From the NCBI RefSeq assembly GCF_000565175.1, contig NZ_CP006681.1:558001-622000 (forward strand): a stretch of DNA of 64,000 nucleotides, in the 5' to 3' direction. The notes under the pieces are model-generated. The model saw nothing but the letters and a program-made list of their open reading frames with translations, had not been told where the DNA came from and did no database searches. Positions 40,158 through 64,000 of this stretch are shown piece after piece. Made by a program: the position numbers and the translations under genes. This DNA comes from Spiroplasma culicicola AES-1 (GTDB lineage: Bacteria; Bacillota_I; Bacilli_A; Mycoplasmatales; Mycoplasmataceae). Each line of letters opens with the position of its first letter. The first letter of the stretch is position 1.

Positions 40158-40188
40158 TTGCTTTTTTTTTTTTTTTTTTATCTATAAT
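40158..40188 (+). promoter_or_regulatory. Promoter-like site with T18 homopolymer in the spacer
   Basis: TTGCTT (40158-40163) and TATAAT (40183-40188) are 19 nt apart, and the gap is mostly the T18 run (40162-40179). Start of the lipoprotein gene is 61 nt downstream. Slippage in the run would change -35/-10 spacing. The run could also serve as the U tract of a weak terminator for the upstream gene. Confidence 0.5.
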
Positions 40189-49744: not shown

Positions 49745-49891
49745 TTTTTTTTTTTTTTTTACAATTAGATAGGCATATATTAATTTATAAAGGTAATAAT
49801 TTATCATTTAAATTTATTTGCTACAAATTTAATAAATCAAGAATTTTTTTAAAATAAAAATTTATTGCAATTTGCAAAAAAAAAAAAAAAA
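49745..49891 (+). repeat. Intergenic region with T16 and A16 homopolymers
   Basis: The 259-nt gap between the YneF-like gene and the MBL hydrolase holds T16 (49745-49760) directly before an ACAAT (TACAAT, 49760-49765) -10-like box, and A16 (49876-49891) just before a promoter-like TTTACT-N16-TATAAT (49894-49921). The two runs are complementary and could pair. No ORF in this gap. These may be remnants of a switchable promoter or contingency sites. Confidence 0.55.
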
Positions 49892-55444: not shown

Positions 55445-55472
55445 TTGCGTTTTTTTTTTTTTTTTCTAAAAT
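55445..55472 (+). promoter_or_regulatory. Promoter-like site with T16 homopolymer spacer, copy A
   Basis: TTGCGT (55445-55450), then 16 nt mostly of the T16 run (55450-55465), then TAAAAT (55467-55472). Spacing is close to optimal. Length change by slippage would alter promoter strength. The overlapping hairpin means it could also be a terminator. Confidence 0.6.
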
Positions 55473-55492
55473 CAACATTAGAAAATATGCAA

Positions 55493-55562
55493 ATAACTTG
55501 TATAAATCAACATAATGGGTTGATGTCTCTACCATAGCACCGATGCTATGACTATAGGTTAT
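55493..55562 (+). promoter_or_regulatory. Purine-family riboswitch aptamer, copy A
   Basis: P1 ATAACTT/AGGTTAT; J1/2 GTATAA; short P2 TCAAC/GTTGA with loop ATAATGG; J2/3 TGTCTCTACC; P3 ATAGC/GCTAT with loop ACCGAT; J3/1 GACTAT. The loop GG/CC kissing pairs are possible. The C of GACTAT matches the specificity base of guanine-type aptamers. U48 of the family is C here. No clear downstream terminator or anti-SD pairing was found in this copy. Confidence 0.85.
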
Positions 55563-55645
55563 ATTCACAAAAATTAATAATTTTAAATACATCGTTATTT
55601 GTTATTTTCACTTTATTAAAGAGAGAAAGGTAATGGTGTTTTTTT

Positions 55646-56437
55646 ATGAAAAAAATATTAGCAATGTTAAGTGCTTTGTCACTAACTGCAACTCCTATAA
55701 CAGCTGTTGTTGCATGTGGAGATAATGATCCTACAACATCAAGAACAAGCTATGATGTTGTTGATGATATTAAAGATATGATAGTTGAAAAAATTAGTTT
55801 AGATACAGAAAAGATATATGAGATTCAAACTGAAGTGTATAATCCACTAAAGGATTTATTAGAAGACAAAGATATACTTGCAATTGATGGGTTACAAGAT
55901 GTAAATACAAGTATTAATGGTTTAACCCCAGAAAATGAATATAGTATTGTTATTAAAAGTTTTACAACTTCATCTGGTGGAGATGATTTTGCAACAAATG
56001 CAAATTATAATTTATGATCAATTGCTATTCAATATTGATACGCACAAAAAGATGAAAATGGTAATTTAAGTTTTAATAGTCGTTACTTTAGTAATTATGA
56101 TTTAGCTTTTAAAGCTGCAAAACAGCAATTAACTGTTACTTATAATGGTCAAATAATTGAACAAAATGGTGCAATTGAATTTGATGGAAATTCATTTGAT
56201 ATTAAATTAACAAAAGGAAAAAATAGAGAAAATATGGACTCTAATGTGAAAGTTGAGGGAATTGAAAATTACTTTACTGTAACTCAAAAACCAGAAGGAG
56301 GAAATTATCCTACTGGAAATACATTAACTTTTACTCCAAAAGAAATAAGTGAATTGACAGAAGACACTAAAGTTGTCATTAATGCACCTTCATTTATTCC
56401 ATTTACATTTACTATTAAAACTAACTCAATAAAATAA
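55646..56437 (+). CDS. Lipoprotein behind riboswitch leader
   Basis: 263 residues with lipobox VVAC (Cys24). No recognised domain; the mature part is mixed beta (LTVTYNGQIIEQNGAIEFDG and TGNTLTFTPKEISELTEDT). Three TGA Trp codons. The ribosome site GAGAAAGG (ends 55630) is 15 nt from ATG 55646, which is far. A better-spaced ATG at 55633 is out of frame, and T7 lies between them. It may be a purine- or nucleic-acid-related surface protein by virtue of the leader, which is an inference. Confidence 0.8.
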
Positions 56438-56447
56438 TAATGAATTA

Positions 56448-56484
56448 TTAAAAAATCTCCCATAAATACTGGGAGATTTTTTAA
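56448..56484 (+). terminator. Terminator, 15-bp stem
   Basis: TTAAAAAATCTCCCA pairs with TGGGAGATTTTTTAA, 7-nt loop. Confidence 0.9.
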
Positions 56485-56508
56485 TTTAAAACTTTTCTCG
56501 AAAAACAA

Positions 56509-56536
56509 TTGCGTTTTTTTTTTTTTTTTCTAAAAT
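56509..56536 (+). promoter_or_regulatory. Promoter-like site with T16 homopolymer spacer, copy B
   Basis: TTGCGT (56509-56514), 16-nt gap filled by T16 (56514-56529), TAAAAT (56531-56536). Identical arrangement and run length to copy A. Confidence 0.6.
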
Positions 56537-56556
56537 ATACATTAGAAAATAAGCAA

Positions 56557-56626
56557 ATAACTTGTATAAGTCAACATAAAGGGTTGATGTCTCTACCATA
56601 GCACCGATGCTATGACTATAGGTTAT
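56557..56626 (+). promoter_or_regulatory. Purine-family riboswitch aptamer, copy B
   Basis: Same P1-J1/2-P2-J2/3-P3-J3/1 layout as copy A, differing at two positions (GTATAAG for GTATAAA, loop ATAAAGG for ATAATGG). Here TGACTATA (56613-56620, J3/1 and P1) is exactly complementary to TATAGTCA (56661-56668) downstream, which could form an alternative pairing in the absence of ligand. Confidence 0.85.
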
Positions 56627-56724
56627 AAATCTTTTTTATCGTATAAAAATTTCAAAATAATATAGTCAGACTAAAACATTGTTATTTGTTATATTTTCGC
56701 AAAAGTAATAAGTGGAGGAAATTT

Positions 56725-58503
56725 ATGAAAAAATTACTTACTTTACTGGCTGCGAGTGCTAGTATAGTTTCTGCGAGTGCAACAGTTGTTGCTTGTGGAA
56801 ATAAAGCTCCAACTAACGTTGTATTTATGTTTGATGCTTCAGTTGGAACAAGTTCAGCAATTACAAAACAATATCAAATTTTAGTAGATAAATATAATGA
56901 ACAAAACCCAGATAATCCTGTAGAAGTTGAAATTGAATTTGCAGCTGCAGGTGCAATTCAAAATGCAATTTTATCAGGAGAAGTATTACCTGATCTTTAT
57001 GTAACTTATCCAGATAATGTTACAAGATACTTAACAACTGCAGAAGAAGAAGTTGTTAAAATGGACGATTACTTTGATACAGAAACATTTGAGCCAATGA
57101 TTGACTCTTTCATGGATGAAGGAAAAATTGGAGATGGACAATATGTTTTACCAATGGCAAAATCATTTGATGTAACAAATGTTAACTTAAGAATGTTAAA
57201 AGAACTTTGTGAAATTGTTTTAGGAACAGAATCAACTACTGGACAATTTTGACAAAAAGATGGATTTCATGAGGAATACACAATTGAATCATCTAATTTA
57301 TTTATTGATACAACTGTAGTAGAACCAGATGAAAATTTGAAAACCTTAATGACAAATATTGCTACAGTAAATAATGCTAATGATTTAAGAAAGATTCTAT
57401 TAAAAGATTCAAATAATGTCTTACTTGCAAAATTAATTTATGAATTAAATGATAAAGTTGACAGAAATGTATTAAGAGATACAGATAAAGTTTATGGTAT
57501 AGGATTAGATGATATGCCAAATAAAGTTTATAGTCAATATGCAGAAAGCATTGAAAAAAGTAGAATTATAACTTCAGCACAAAATAAGGAATTTTTCTAT
57601 AACTATTATGATGATCAATTCTATATAAATGATGACACAGGTATGGAAGGTATTGACTCAGCTTTTAAAATGTTACAAGATTTAAAAGATATTAAAGAAC
57701 CAGGTCAATCACTTTCAGGTAATATAGATGAATCAAAGCAAAATGAATTAATTTACACAATTGATCCATCAATGAGTGGAACTAAAAAATATTCAAGTGA
57801 CTTCTTTGCAGCTGGAACAATGTTAATGGCTTCTGGTTCAACTGCGGGATCATTCTATTATCAAAGCAAAACTGGTGTTAAAGATGAAGTTTTTGTTAAA
57901 ATGAATGATATCTTAACTATTGGAACTCCAACAAAAGATGGAGAACAATACATAATGCAACAAGGTCCTGGAATTGCAGCATTTAAATCTACAAATGATG
58001 AAAAAACAGAAGTTGCAAAAGACTTTGTAAGTTTCATGATGGAAGCACAAAATATGGCAGAATTTGCAATTTATACAGGTTATATGCCTTCAAATGCAAA
58101 AACATATTCAGACACAGATTACATGGAATGATTAAAAGGTACTAAAAATCCTGGTTCTTCTTCAAGAGATAATGCCATTTTATTACAAGTTGCAGAATTA
58201 ATTGAAGATAAAACAAATTCACACTTCGTTACAATTGAAGGTTCACCAATGGGAACTGGAGTTAGAGATAAAGTATTTAAAAACGTAGTTCAAAACCAAA
58301 TGTTTAATGATGCAAAAGCAGTATTTGTAAATTCTGATAAAAAAGTTGGAAATAAAAATTCTACTGATACAACTTTCTGAAAAACTGCACAACCAGCAAT
58401 TCACAATATTTACACTGACTTTATTGCTACTGGAAAAGAAAAATATCAATCTGATACTAAAAATAAAAGCGCAATTCTTAATGAAAGAAAAAAATCTTTA
58501 TAA
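56725..58503 (+). CDS. Extracellular solute-binding lipoprotein of an ABC importer
   Basis: 592 residues. I start at ATG 56725 with GGAGG; the longer frame from 56686 adds a poor leader. Lipobox VVAC (Cys24). Family 1 binding-protein pattern: [31 protein letters not shown] start, [31 protein letters not shown] and [24 protein letters not shown], similar to UgpB/MalE proteins. TGA Trp at 57251, 58129 and 58378. Stop overlaps the start of the next gene. The cargo is unknown; the purine riboswitch suggests nucleosides or nucleic-acid fragments. Confidence 0.85.
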
Positions 58504-59438
58504 TGCAATTATTAAAACAAATTGAAAATGAAATTAAAGATTTTGACACAATTATAATCCATAGACATGTTAATCCAGATGGTGATGCTTATGGAAGTCA
58601 ATTGGGTTTAAAATGATTAATTGAACAAAACTTTAAAGATAAAAGATGTTATGCAGTAGGTGAATCAATTGAATGACTGAACTATGTTGGGTCATTTGAT
58701 GTTATCGAAGATGATAACATCTTTCATAATTCTCTAGTAATTGTGACAGATTGTGCAAATGTAGAAAGAATATCAGATCAAAGATTTACATTAGCAAAAA
58801 AGGTTATTAAAATAGATCACCATCCCAATATTACAGAATATGGTGATTTAATGTGAGTTGATACAAGTTATACTTCAGCCAGTGAAATGGTTGGTTATTT
58901 AGCAATTCAATTAGGATGAGAAATTCCTCAAAAAGCTGCAAGAGCAATTTTTAATGGAATTGTAACTGATTCAGGCAGATTTATGTATCGTGGTGTTAGT
59001 CCAAGAACATTTGATGTAGCAAGTAAACTATTGTCAACTGGTTTTGACTTGGATGAACTATATAGAAATTTAAATACAAAGAAATTAAGTGATTTAGAAT
59101 TTACAAATTATATCTTTAACAACTTTAAATTATCAAGTAATGGTTTAGCTTCAATTGTAGTACCAATTTCAGAAATGGATAAACATGGTTTATCTGCAGA
59201 AGTTATGAACAAATATGCAAATACACTTGCTGGTTTTGAAGAAATTAAAATGTGAATTACTTTTAGTGAAAGAACTGATGGTCAATATCGTGTAGAGTTT
59301 AGAAGTTCAAAAACAATTGTTAATGAATTAGCAGTTAAATACGGTGGGGGAGGTCATGCCCTTGCATCTGGTGCAATTGCACCAGATTTAGAAACAGTAA
59401 ATAAAATTATAGAAGATGCCGATCAACTTTTAAAATAA
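58503..59438 (+). CDS. nrnA: NrnA-type DHH oligoribonuclease / pAp phosphatase
   Basis: 311 residues. [20 protein letters not shown] and VIVTDCAN supply the metal-binding Asp/His; IDHHPN is the DHH motif; [14 protein letters not shown] and [12 protein letters not shown] follow; the DHHA1 domain ends with [14 protein letters not shown]. It degrades 2-5-mer RNA and dephosphorylates pAp. The gene overlaps the preceding one by 1 nt and is followed after 3 nt by the ABC ATPase, so it is part of the importer operon. TGA Trp codons. Confidence 0.92.
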
Positions 59439-59441
59439 GTT

Positions 59442-61322
59442 ATGAGTATTAAATTAAGAAACGTAACAATTGATTATGGAAATTTTATTGCTGTTGACAA
59501 TTTAAGTATTGATATTAAATCAGGCGAATTAGTTTCAATACTTGGACCTTCTGGTTGTGGAAAATCTACAACTTTAAATGCCATTGCTGGCTTAATTCAA
59601 ATTACAAGTGGTCAAATCCTATTTGACGGAATTGATGTTACTCACAAAAGTACACAAAAAAGAAATATAGGTTTGGTTTTTCAAAACTATGCACTATATC
59701 CACATTTAAATGTTTTTCAAAACATTGCATTTCCTTTATATCAAAGCAATGATTTTAGAAGAAGTGTTAAAATTAAAAATAACGATTTAAAACTTAATCG
59801 TTTAATCTTTGATAATAGTTTAAATAATAAAAATATTTTTAATCAATTATCAAAACAAAATATTTCCTTTAATAATTACTTATCAGAAATTGAAGATCAA
59901 TTATCTGATGTCGAAAATATATTTATAACAAAAGCAAACACTTATATCACTGATTTTATTAAACAAATTTATATAAGTGATAAATATGAAGTTTTTAAAA
60001 ATAAACAGACTTCATATTTATTTGATAAAATGAAAGTTATCTTTTGAGAACAATACTTAGAAGTATTTAATCAAATAAAAACTTTATTAACACAAAAAAA
60101 TGAAGTATTAGTTTCAAGTGAAATTAAACATAAAGAGAATATTATTTCAATTATGAAAAAAATACTTTCGAATTTAGAATATAAAATTATTTTAAAAATT
60201 AAAAATAACATTAAGTTATTTAGTGATTCTTTAAAACTACATATCTCTTCAATTCGTAAAGAAATAAAATTAGCACAAAAAAATGCTAAGAAAATGAATG
60301 AAGAATTTAGTTTTGAATTAGATGACGAACAATTTAATTCAAAAATGCAAGAGTTTGAAATTAACTCACAAAAAATTATGGATGAAATAAATAATGAAAT
60401 TGAAAAAACAATTTCAAAAAATATTTCTATAAAAATTGATGATTTAATAAAACAATTTCAAAATATTTATTCTCAACCAATTAAAAGTGAACAAACTTTT
60501 AATGAAGAAGAAACATTTGAATTTAAAAAGGCTCATCAATTAACAAGTTTTAAAAAAGAATTAAGAGCAGCTGTTATGGAAGTTGCAACTAAAGTTGAAA
60601 TTCAAGATCAACTTCATAAAAAACCTTCAGAATTATCTGGAGGACAACAACAACGTGTTGCAATTGCTCGTTCTGTTGTTAAGAAACCAAAAATATTATT
60701 ACTTGATGAACCATTGAGTAACTTAGATGCAAAACTTAGAGTTTCAACTCGTGAATGAATTAAAAGATTCCAACAAGAAACAAAAATTACAACAGTTTTT
60801 GTAACTCACGATCAAGAAGAGGCTTTAAGTATCTCTGATAAAATTTTTGTTATGTCAAAAGGTTTATTACAACAAGGGGATGTACCAATAAATATTTATG
60901 AAAAACCAAACAACATTTTTGTTGCAAACTTTATTGGAACACCAACTATGAATTTCTTAAAGGCAACTACTTCAAGTGATGGATCAATTAGTTTTGGAAA
61001 TACAATTCTGACTAAAAAGTCTTCTCATAAAAATAAGGAAATTGTTATAGGAATTCGTCCAGAGCATTTAAAAATTGCTCAAGATAATTTAAATAATAAA
61101 TTTTTATCAAAAGACTTAATGTCTGGTAAGGTAGTTAACTTTGAACTACTTGGTAAATCAAATTTTGTTAAATTAGATTTTGATAATTCAGAACTTGGAA
61201 TTATTTATGATTCACATATTAAAAAAGAAATAGATTATAATGAAGAAATTAAATTTAATATCTTAGAAAATAATTTATTTATTTTTGATACTGAATCACA
61301 TACTTTATTGGAAGTTATTTAA
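59442..61322 (+). CDS. ugpC: UgpC/MalK-type ABC ATPase with a roughly 260-residue insertion
   Basis: 626 residues. Walker [14 protein letters not shown]-loop [21 protein letters not shown] (about residue 85), signature [14 protein letters not shown] (starts residue 398), Walker [13 protein letters not shown], switch VTHDQEEAL, and a C-terminal TOBE-like regulatory domain ([10 protein letters not shown]). In usual family members Q-loop and signature are about 50 residues apart. The extra residues here are Lys/Glu/Asn-rich and largely helical ([20 protein letters not shown]). Mycoplasma orthologues also carry long insertions. The stop overlaps the permease start. Confidence 0.9.
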
Positions 61323-62308
61323 TGAGAATTCAAGAAAGTAAAAATTTTGAAATACGTAATGATATTTCAAAATCACAAGTTACAAAAAAGAAAAAAACAA
61401 AATCTATTAACATGGAGCGAACAAAATTTGATTTTCTATACCAAATGATTTGAATCACACCAGCGTTAGCATTTTTATTTATATTTTCATATTATTCAAT
61501 CTTTATAGTCTTTAGAAATGGATTTAACTCTGCTTCAAGACCAATTTTAAATTTTGAATTTTCATTTATAAATTTTAAAAATGTTGCAAATGATGCTTCA
61601 TTTCAAATTGCATTGAGAAATTCATTGCTGTATTCAGTTGTTGTTATTCCAATTTCATTAACATTTTCTATGACTACAGCAAAACTATTATCAAATGTAT
61701 TAAATAAAAAATTATTTTCATTTTTACAATCATTATTCTTTTTACCATATGTAACATCTGCAATGGCAATTTCAATGTCTTTTGCTTTTATCTTCTCACC
61801 AGATAATTATGGTTTAATAAATCAAATTTTACTTGCTTTGGGATTTGATAAAGTTGATTGAACTTCAAAGAGTAATGGAATTATTTTGGTAATGATCTAT
61901 GGAGTTTGAAGATCATTACCATTTGAAATAATTATGTTCACTGCAACTTTTTTAAGAATTGATAAAAGATATTATCATGCAGCTGCAGTTGATGGAGTTC
62001 CAAAATGAAAACAATTTTGAAAAATATCAATCCCAAGAGCAATGCCAATGATTGTTTATATGATAACAACTGGAATCATTAGTTCATTTAAAGTATTTCC
62101 ATTAGGATTATTTGGTTCATATGAAGGTGCAGCACAAGCAAATGCACAAACAGTTGTGTTTTATATTTTTGATAAAGTAAATGCATCTTCAACTTCACCA
62201 TCGTATGGAAAAGGTGGAGCCGCTTCAATTATCTTAATGACAATCATATTAGCAATAACTATAGTTAATAAATTTATTACAAATCATCTTTCAAAGAAAT
62301 ATAGGTAG
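61322..62308 (+). CDS. ugpA: ABC importer permease (UgpA-like)
   Basis: 328 residues with a charged N-terminal tail, then about six membrane helices. The EAA-loop region YYHAAAVDGVPKWKQFWKISIPRAMP (conserved as EAA-xDGA----F--I-LP) is clear. The periplasmic-side loop FGSYEGAAQANAQTVVFYIF and a final helix follow. Several TGA Trp codons. It pairs with the 62316 permease; named by similarity of layout only. Confidence 0.85.
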
Positions 62309-62315
62309 TTAAATT

Positions 62316-63668
62316 ATGAATAAAATTAAATCTAATAGTAATTTTGCAAAATTACATTCACAATATTTACAACAACAAGAAAGTTTGAAAGATGACAAAC
62401 TTGCTTTAACAAATGTTAAAGCTGAATTTGAAAACAATGTAATAAAATTAAATGATAGTAATGATTTTTATACTTTTAAAGAAATTAATCATGCTCGAAA
62501 AATTAAAGTAAAAAATATTAAGTCACAAATTAAAGCTTCAAAAGATATTGAACAAAAATATCTTTTATCAAATCAGATATTTAATCTTAATGATCAAGCA
62601 ATTAACTTTACTAATAAAATAATTTTTAACAGTTATATCTTATTTTTCATTTCAATTTATTTTTGATTCATCAAAAAAGGAAATAAAAAATATTTAAACT
62701 TTGTAAATTATAAATACAATCGAAAATTGAATAAACAAATTTTATTTACAAGCACAATGGCTGGTGAAAAATTTGTACAAAAATTCTTTAATAAATTATG
62801 ACAAGGAACATTCTTATTTGTAATGGCAATTATTATTATTTTTCCATTCTACTGAATGTTAATCACTTCACTTAGAGGTTCTGATGAATTTGATCCAATG
62901 AATCCAATGTCATTCTTTCCAAAGACATGATCTTTTGAAGCTTATCGAAAATTATTTGAATATATAAATGATGATTCATCAAAATTTAAAATAACTTTGA
63001 TTAGATTCTTTATAAACTCAATCATAATTAGTTTAATAACAACAATTTTACAATTAACAGTTTCTGTTATTGCTGGATTTGGTTTAGCAAACTGAAAAAC
63101 TAAACCTCAAGGAATTATTTTAATAATTATGTTATCAACAGTTATGATTCCAGGAGAAGCATTATTAATTGGACAATACATTTTTATGGTGCAATTGGGT
63201 TGAAAAAATACCATTCTAGCTTTAGTCGTACCATTTATTTCAAATGTCTTTACCATCTATTTAATGTCAAGTGCTTTTTCACAAGTTGGGGGTAGTGTTA
63301 AACATGCTGCCAAAGTTGATGGTCTTTCAACTTGAAAATACTTTTGAAAAGTTGCTTTACCTTCAATTAAATCAACAATTGTTACATCATTTGTAATTTC
63401 ATTAATTTCATCATGAAATGCAGTCTTGTGACCAACAATGGTTTTAAGTAATGGTTCAGATTGAGTAACATTGCCAATGCTCTTGTGAGATTTAATGAAA
63501 GCTAGTGGGGGAGAACCTGGTACTATCTTGGAAGATTTTGCACGTGATCCTCAAAACTTAAAAATGGCTGGAGCAATTTTATCCATCTTGCCAATGTTAA
63601 TAATGTTCTTATTCTGTAATAAACTAATAATTCGTGGAATTTCACGAGATAAAGGAGATAAGGGATAG
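62316..63668 (+). CDS. ugpE: ABC importer permease (UgpE-like)
   Basis: 450 residues, longer than usual because of an about 150-residue N-terminal part with a coiled-coil segment and one extra membrane helix (IIFNSYILFFISIYFWF). The core begins at FLFVMAIIIIFPFYWMLITSLRG, followed by ANWKTKPQGIILII, the EAA region HAAKVDGLSTWKYFWKVALPSIKS, and a C-terminal WPTMVLSNGSDWVTLPMLLWD. Seven nucleotides after the first permease. TGA Trp at many positions. Confidence 0.85.
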
Positions 63669-63669
63669 G

Positions 63670-64000
63670 ATGAAAAAACTAATTTCTTTAATGCTTTCTT
63701 TTAGTATTACAAGTTCACTTGCAGCAAATGTTGTTGCATGTGGAACTAATTTTAATGTCAAAATTTCATCTGATGTGTCATATTACACTTTGTCTGTTGG
63801 TAATGGTTTATTTTCTTATTTACAAGTTGAAAATAAAGCAATTCTCTTTGATGCAGGTGTAGGTTTACAAGATGGAGCTTCTTGAACTGGTGAATTACAA
63901 AAGGGAAATCAATTTCAAAGTGATTTTATGAAATCAACTGGAGTTGAAGAAATTGAAGCAATTTTTATCACTCATAATCATTCAGATCATTATGGGAATT
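63670..64000 (+). CDS. MBL-fold surface lipoprotein (3' end missing)
   Basis: 110 codons in the window, frame open at the edge. ATG 63670 lies 1 nt after the permease stop, with AAAGGAG inside the upstream gene. Lipobox VVAC (Cys24). The mature part has YYTLSVGNGLFSYLQVENKA, ILFDAGVG and FITHNHSDHYG, the first metal motif of the MBL fold (HNHSDH). Resembles the ComEC-type/exonuclease MBL domain. It is probably a metal-dependent surface phosphodiesterase or nuclease coupled to the importer. TGA Trp at 63883. Confidence 0.85.

Follow-up and report, generated by a model that had tools for sequence, protein, structure and literature searches.

What two short aptamers of the purine class sense, how they act and what they control is the question raised by a locus of Spiroplasma culicicola AES-1, where one of them leads a gene for a surface lipoprotein and the other a lipoprotein/ABC-transporter operon. 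We consider it likely that they are two paralogous, cis-acting guanine riboswitches of the short-loop form of Mollicutes, which turn down both the lipoprotein gene and the operon, the latter probably salvaging nucleic-acid breakdown products; in this reading we infer the ligand, the OFF direction and the cargo. An earlier note on the same DNA had described the aptamers as independent of the adjacent promoters and possibly of a new specificity, and its claims are taken up below with the results that bear on them.

Detection and fold of the aptamers

The window, i.e. the whole 64-kb stretch analysed (positions 558001–622000 of a single contig of 1,175,131 bases, translated with code 4), gave two Rfam matches over threshold with cmscan and no more (Table 1). 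The top family for both copies is 2dG-I (RF01510, cut-off 51 bits), not Purine (RF00167, cut-off 37 bits). Both models are above cut-off for both copies, and the purine model gives slightly higher bits (59.7 and 58.4 versus 58.5 and 57.9), the RF01510 scores being from the scan of the 64-kb window and the RF00167 scores from a search of the whole genome. The earlier note, which had recognised two purine-family aptamers and proposed a search with the Rfam purine model as a check, is thus borne out. Model alignment also agrees with its description of J1/2, J2/3 (GUCUCUACC), J3/1 (GACUAU), the short L3 (4 nt) and the C at position 48; as to its short P2 of 5 bp, the short loops stand but P2 has 6 pairs, on which model and folding agree, with G-U as the lowest pair in copy 2. 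P1 is longer by 3 pairs in the leader fold of copy 1, which matches the outer coordinates 55493 and 56626. The two aptamers differ from each other at 2 of 64 bases.

Since the aptamers on their own fold with unexceptional energy (z −1.46 and −1.09), the evidence for them consists of the covariance-model match and of the pairing kept in relatives. A mechanical parse of 37 short-loop relatives in the genus found most positions of P1, P2 and P3 paired in 32–37 of them, and two P3 positions in just 27. As to the loop letters, GG in L2 is kept by all 79, and CC in L3 by 78, of the 79 U51/A52 aptamers with short loops that were inspected across the family.

Two other elements of the genome may be mentioned here. 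A sixth purine match (G000:C1:688817) was rejected as a chance one, with 20.7 bits and a position inside an ORF of the same (minus) strand that looks by eye like a sugar kinase of the ROK type. Behind another guanine-type aptamer, which has a promoter-like box (L003, G000:C1:232654–232717), there is no clear gene; some 300 bases further on comes a convergent gene, thioredoxin reductase-like by eye, and the element is possibly a small RNA or the remnant of a lost gene.

Table 1. Features of the locus, in window coordinates
Feature	Position	Strand	Basis
Copy 1 promoter, TTGCG, T16 spacer, C, TAAAAT; −10 at 55467–55472	55445–55472	+	sequence
Copy 1 P strand GAAAATATGCAAATAAC, in the 5′ leader, last bases within the extended P1; predicted to pair with T	55481–55497	+	folding
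Copy 1 aptamer, short L3, guanine-type pocket	55496–55559	+	RF01510 58.5 bits, E 6.9e-10; RF00167 59.7 bits
Copy 1 T (switching) strand, predicted partner of P (antiterminator) or H (terminator)	55593–55609	+	folding
Copy 1 terminator-like hairpin (55589–55639) and U7 (55639–55645) reaching the ATG; contains Shine-Dalgarno-like GAGAAAGG	55589–55645	+	MFE
LipoA lipoprotein gene, 263 aa, code 4	55646–56437	+	lipoprotein signal NF038029; homologues before ESBP in G160 and G163
Copy 2 promoter, identical 28-base TTGCG-T16-CTAAAAT; −10 ends at 56536	56509–56536	+	sequence
Copy 2 P strand GAAAATAAGCAAATAAC	56545–56561	+	folding
Copy 2 aptamer, guanine-type pocket	56560–56623	+	RF01510 57.9 bits, E 1e-9; RF00167 58.4 bits
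Copy 2 T strand GTTATTTGTTATATTTTC, kept despite divergence of the surrounding leader from copy 1	56681–56698	+	folding, copy comparison
ESBP solute-binding lipoprotein, 592 aa	56725–58503	+	Pfam SBP_bac_8 E 3e-16
DHH/DHHA1 protein nearest NrnA (oligoribonuclease/pAp phosphatase)	58503–59438	+	NCBIfam NrnA 288.9 bits (below the cut-off of 350); PDB 5j21 E 2.2e-72
MalK/UgpC-like ABC ATPase with long insertion	59442–61322	+	family matches
UgpA-like permease	61322–62308	+	family matches
UgpE-like permease	62316–63668	+	family matches
Start of metallo-beta-lactamase lipoprotein nearest ComEC/Rec2	63670–64000 (ends 64716, past the window)	+	TIGR00361 E 1.7e-25, below cut-off; PDB ComEC 9vc6 E 2.3e-10

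Pocket letters and ligand

In the model alignment both copies have U22, U51, A52 and C74, compared with C22, C51, G52 and C74 in the 2dG-I pocket, where positions 22, 51 and 52 correspond to C31, C58 and G59. The available text of PMC8872408 names these three as pocket positions, states that C58/51 decides between nucleoside and base, and reports that U51C alone turns a guanine riboswitch into one for 2′-dG. The letters diagnostic of 2dG-I (C51, C22, G52) are absent from both copies, as are the C51 diagnostic of 2′-dG-II and the U74 of adenine riboswitches, the copies having U and C, respectively, at these positions. The features of the xanthine-II variant, described in the accessible part of PMC9295807 as G at position 51 with insertions in J2/3 and J3/1, are absent too (U51, no insertions). 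The guanine-type C in J3/1 and the retained U51 to which the earlier note drew attention are therefore present in both copies, and guanine, which it held to be a possible ligand, agrees with all four letters. Judged by these letters, both aptamers most likely sense guanine.

An altered core, C48 included, had been taken as a hint of a new specificity. Comparison with relatives does not support this view: position 48 is C in 34 of 83 guanine-type aptamers (U in 44, A in 5), so that C48 is no sign of a new ligand, and the GG of L2 and the CC of L3 are nearly invariant, as reported above. As far as the letters go, nothing indicates a new specificity; C48 is ordinary and the short loops are common to the group.

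The elements can be placed among known systems accordingly. With the guanine riboswitch (RF00167) they share the three-way junction, the four pocket letters, the GG/CC loop letters and a score over the cut-off, but they have a 4-nt L3, C48 and lipoprotein/ABC targets. To the 2′-dG-I riboswitch of M. florum (RF01510) they are alike in their short loops, in the position on the same operon and in the P/A/T/H layout (for copy 1, by prediction), whereas the pocket is U22/U51/A52 here and C22/C51/G52 there. U22 and A52 also occur in 2′-dG-II, in which position 51 is C instead of U; the 2′-dG-II letters named in the available text of PMC8872408 are those of the intermediate pocket (see below) of g2, g10, g11 and g12.

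Promoters and a duplicated cassette

P1 starts at 55496 in copy 1 and at 56560 in copy 2, downstream of −10 boxes that end at 55472 and 56536, i.e. just before it; each promoter would therefore transcribe straight into its aptamer, and the stretch from −10 to P1 supplies the 5′ strand of the antiterminator predicted below. The independence of aptamer and poly-T promoter assumed in the earlier note is thus contradicted. The copy 1 promoter was absent from a consensus promoter scan, its −35 match being weak. The two copies are near-identical from the promoter through the stretch leading to P1 and through the aptamer to the first few bases 3′ of it; further 3′ the leaders diverge, except for the strand ACATYGTTATTTGTTAT present in both. 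Promoter, P strand, aptamer and T strand having been kept while the rest diverged, we conclude that a cassette was duplicated.

A search of the genome for T12 or longer followed within 8 bases by TAAAAT returned 7 distinct places; the 4 with T16–17 all lie before lipoprotein genes, and the other 3 have T12 and are on the opposite strand. By analogy, the length of the poly-T tract is likely to vary. Spacers of T16–18 without aptamers also occur before lipoprotein genes (window 40162–40179; L233 and L250) and are candidates for phase variation; the T18 at 40162–40179 of the window precedes a gene that is lipoprotein-like by eye. The T16 at 49745 does not appear to follow the poly-T/lipoprotein pattern.

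A predicted OFF switch

The 2′-dG OFF switch of M. florum is described, in the available text of PMC5838219 and also of PMC12268651, by a scheme of P, A, T and H strands. A separate 5′-end helix, ‘P0’, that we had considered as a novelty of the window was dropped, as it equals the P-T antiterminator logic of PMC5838219. In both copies P can form a duplex with T, which lies about 95–120 bases downstream (−15.4 and −15.6 kcal/mol), and this duplex would keep P1 from closing. A duplex as good was obtained in only 3 and 4 of 2000 shuffles and, for each copy, with 2 of 141 downstream regions swapped in from other genomes. The same test was made at 145 of 175 loci of relatives, those with an assigned gene start within 25–320 bases: the locus's own downstream region was in the best 5% of swapped regions at 75 of the 145, with about 7 expected. 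With 38-nt arms and shuffles, p≤0.05 was reached at 65 of the 145, so that the pairing is not universal; in this 145-locus test it was mostly not found in genus g8 and in genomes outside the family. In some Mesoplasma-type leaders (e.g. L112 and L115) a strand beyond the terminator is complementary to the 5′ end of the RNA (CAACTTAA.../...TTAAGTTG), a second pairing that may come on top of this scheme and could hold the leader in its read-through form or shield that end.

The copy 1 hairpin has an MFE of −12.4 kcal/mol (z −3.55; equalled by 1 of 200 shuffles) and is no better than shuffles when cut shorter, with part of its 5′ arm missing (z 0.73 and 1.05). The two states of the whole copy 1 leader are close in energy, −32.9 kcal/mol with aptamer and terminator versus −34.3 with P-T, and a bound ligand could tip the balance between them. 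The probability that the Shine-Dalgarno sequence is unpaired is 0.15 with the aptamer and 0.59 with P-T. The copy 2 leader prefers the P-T state by 9 kcal/mol, the change of state neither frees nor masks any clear element, and Shine-Dalgarno accessibility is equal in both states (0.29 and 0.29); folding and scans of this leader found no terminator, the best hairpin having a z of −0.16, and a terminator in copy 2 was rejected on that ground. The mutually exclusive P-A, P-T and T-H pairings, together with a terminator, are predicted for copy 1, by energy models only, and P-A and P-T only for copy 2.

The proposed course of events would be as follows. RNA would start at the poly-T-spaced promoter, a few bases 5′ of the P strand. 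Without guanine, P would pair with T, giving an antiterminator and read-through; with guanine bound, P1 would close and T would be freed. In copy 1 the free T would then form with H a terminator ending in U7 at the ATG, which would also mask the Shine-Dalgarno region. Copy 2 has the same P, aptamer and T elements but no clear output structure. Copy 1 is therefore, by prediction, a complete transcriptional OFF switch, and for both copies we infer the OFF direction.

The operon and its probable cargo

Copy 1 leads LipoA, and copy 2 leads an operon coding for ESBP, the NrnA-like protein, the ATPase, two permeases and the ComEC-like protein. ESBP relatives occur in 18 of 60 genomes of the family. 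Four genomes of the window's genus together hold 5 ESBP genes, one of which is broken; an aptamer precedes each of the 5, of guanine type in four cases and of adenine type in one (G195:642175). The latter (L074, G195:C2:642175) has U74 and precedes an ESBP paralogue; the second, broken ESBP of the same genome has a guanine-type aptamer. In the MalK-like ATPase an insertion of some 250 residues separates the Walker A half from the signature half; the G160 and G163 homologues of this protein are longer still.

The NrnA-like and ComEC-like partners and the purine control make nucleic-acid salvage the better guess for the cargo, and the operon probably salvages nucleic-acid breakdown products. A putative nucleotide-transporter operon of Mycoplasma (PMC4045577) resembles it by description, with a surface lipoprotein, an ABC transporter and a nuclease-like partner; MslA, a homologue of one lipoprotein there, is cited as DNA-binding, and the available text differs in that it mentions no riboswitch.

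A competing reading is that the operon imports a sugar or glycerol phosphate and that its purine control is incidental. Its best family names are indeed UgpA-, UgpC- and UgpE-like, and the closest solved (PDB) relatives of ESBP are named as sugar-binding. We nevertheless hold it unlikely in view of the partners just named, of purine riboswitch control across genera and of the ESBP paralogue under an adenine-type aptamer; moreover, according to the accessible part of PMC12838404, nucleoside uptake in M. bovis involves a UgpE-like permease whose operon carries a glycerol annotation.

Relatives and a series of pockets

In a survey of 320 genomes of the order, RF01510 matched in 35 and RF00167 in 61, giving 212 distinct aptamer places, 175 of which were fetched and parsed; the other 37 were matched by RF00167 only. 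Pocket letters (22, 51, 52, 74) were read by a pattern script: guanine-type UUAC in 83, 2dG-I CCGC in 26, adenine-type UUAU in 25, CUGC in 17, intermediate UCAC in 16, and others in 8, at least one of which (G181:246662) is a misread partial match. The first gene is a purine base or nucleotide gene for 46 of the 83 guanine-type pockets and for 0 of 42 with C51, and it is nrdF for 0 of 83 and 11 of 42, respectively, counts that come from related loci and hence not from independent events. Among the 72 RF01510 matches over the cut-off, the pocket is 2dG-I in 26, CUGC in 17, guanine in 14 (two of these being the window aptamers), intermediate in 11 and other in 4.

The intermediate pocket U22 C51 A52 C74 is found in 16 aptamers (G151, G152, G201–G205 and G209; e.g. 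L127, L130 and L080), 3 of which precede nrdF; these are likely 2′-dG sensors, with 2′-dG-II pocket letters on a 2dG-I frame. In one genome (L264, G195:C2:738644 and 742039) guanine-type aptamers precede genes that are, by eye, adenosine deaminase-like and nucleoside hydrolase-like, both apparently broken.

The same operon is met outside the window's genus, where its leaders carry 2dG-I, CUGC or intermediate pockets. The order ESBP-ABC-permease-permease was seen in the 10 other loci of a two-permease tree (697 columns, 11 loci), with LipoA before ESBP in G160 and G163. In this tree, rooted at midpoint only, a split with 100% support places the four genomes of guanine type on one side and the remaining seven on the other. 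Among these seven, the loci with 2dG-I and CUGC pockets group together (100%) to the exclusion of the three intermediates, whose own order is in part weakly supported (55%). Pockets are mixed in the G160 cluster, two LipoA-type leaders having C51 and the ESBP leader U51 G52. The direction, from guanine to 2′-dG, would rest on the phylogeny of the group, not on this midpoint rooting. On balance we lean towards the view that one operon, its order kept across genera, presents a natural series of pockets, from guanine U22 U51 A52 in the window's genus through intermediate U22 C51 A52 in three other genera to 2dG-I C22 C51 G52 in Mesoplasma-type genomes (some with C22 U51 G52). The guanine form would be the older one, the aptamers of the window would be present-day equivalents of the 2dG-I ancestor, and RF01510 would mix four pocket types.

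Other explanations for the aptamers

Both elements might instead be 2dG-I riboswitches sensing 2′-deoxyguanosine, since they exceed the RF01510 cut-off and 2dG-I pockets occur on the same operon in Mesoplasma-type genomes. This we regard as very improbable: the three discriminating positions (U22, U51, A52) all differ, the score stems from the short loops and from P1 and J3/1, which are common to the lineage, and the C22 C51 G52 C74 pocket is present in only a minority of the RF01510 matches, the full guanine pocket occurring among them as well. In addition, C58U weakens binding 83-fold in 2dG-I (PMC8872408, available text). The 2dG-I label was dropped, the pocket letters being guanine-type at every position that discriminates 2′-dG from guanine. 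A new or relaxed specificity, for hypoxanthine, guanosine, xanthine or another purine, could be read from C48, the shortened loops and the unusual lipoprotein targets; it seems to us quite improbable, because some of the guanine-type aptamers with C48 stand before NCS2 permease genes and the loops match those of relatives on classical purine genes.

Another possibility is that the aptamers are decayed relics, duplicated with the promoter cassette, and that poly-T length alone sets expression. Copy 2 is without a clear output structure, and T16–17 promoters precede two other lipoprotein genes of the genome, where no purine match was found. We give this little credence too, as aptamer and T strand have been kept in leaders that otherwise diverged and as an aptamer stands before every ESBP gene of the genus. 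Two guanine riboswitches therefore remain our preferred reading.

Significance

A search of the literature on riboswitches of M. florum, Spiroplasma and Entomoplasma, on 2dG-I in Rfam and on poly-T lipoproteins found neither these elements nor the pocket series described, which is weak evidence of novelty, most subscription papers being outside the search. Shortened loops and some guanine binders were reportedly already noted in M. florum by Kim et al. in 2007. The window aptamers are thus ordinary in their pocket and new only as members; the evolutionary setting is the informative part. In practice, the pocket letters should be checked wherever 2dG-I is assigned automatically, the diagnostic pocket being present in 26 of the 72 matches over the cut-off. 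In these leaders, moreover, a riboswitch is coupled with a poly-T promoter that is a candidate for phase variation. If our reading is true, regulation would provide independent evidence that, in wall-less bacteria, nucleic-acid products are handled by a transporter whose best family names point to sugar or glycerol phosphate, and the shift from a base to a nucleoside pocket could be followed, inside one gene cluster, in a testable natural series.
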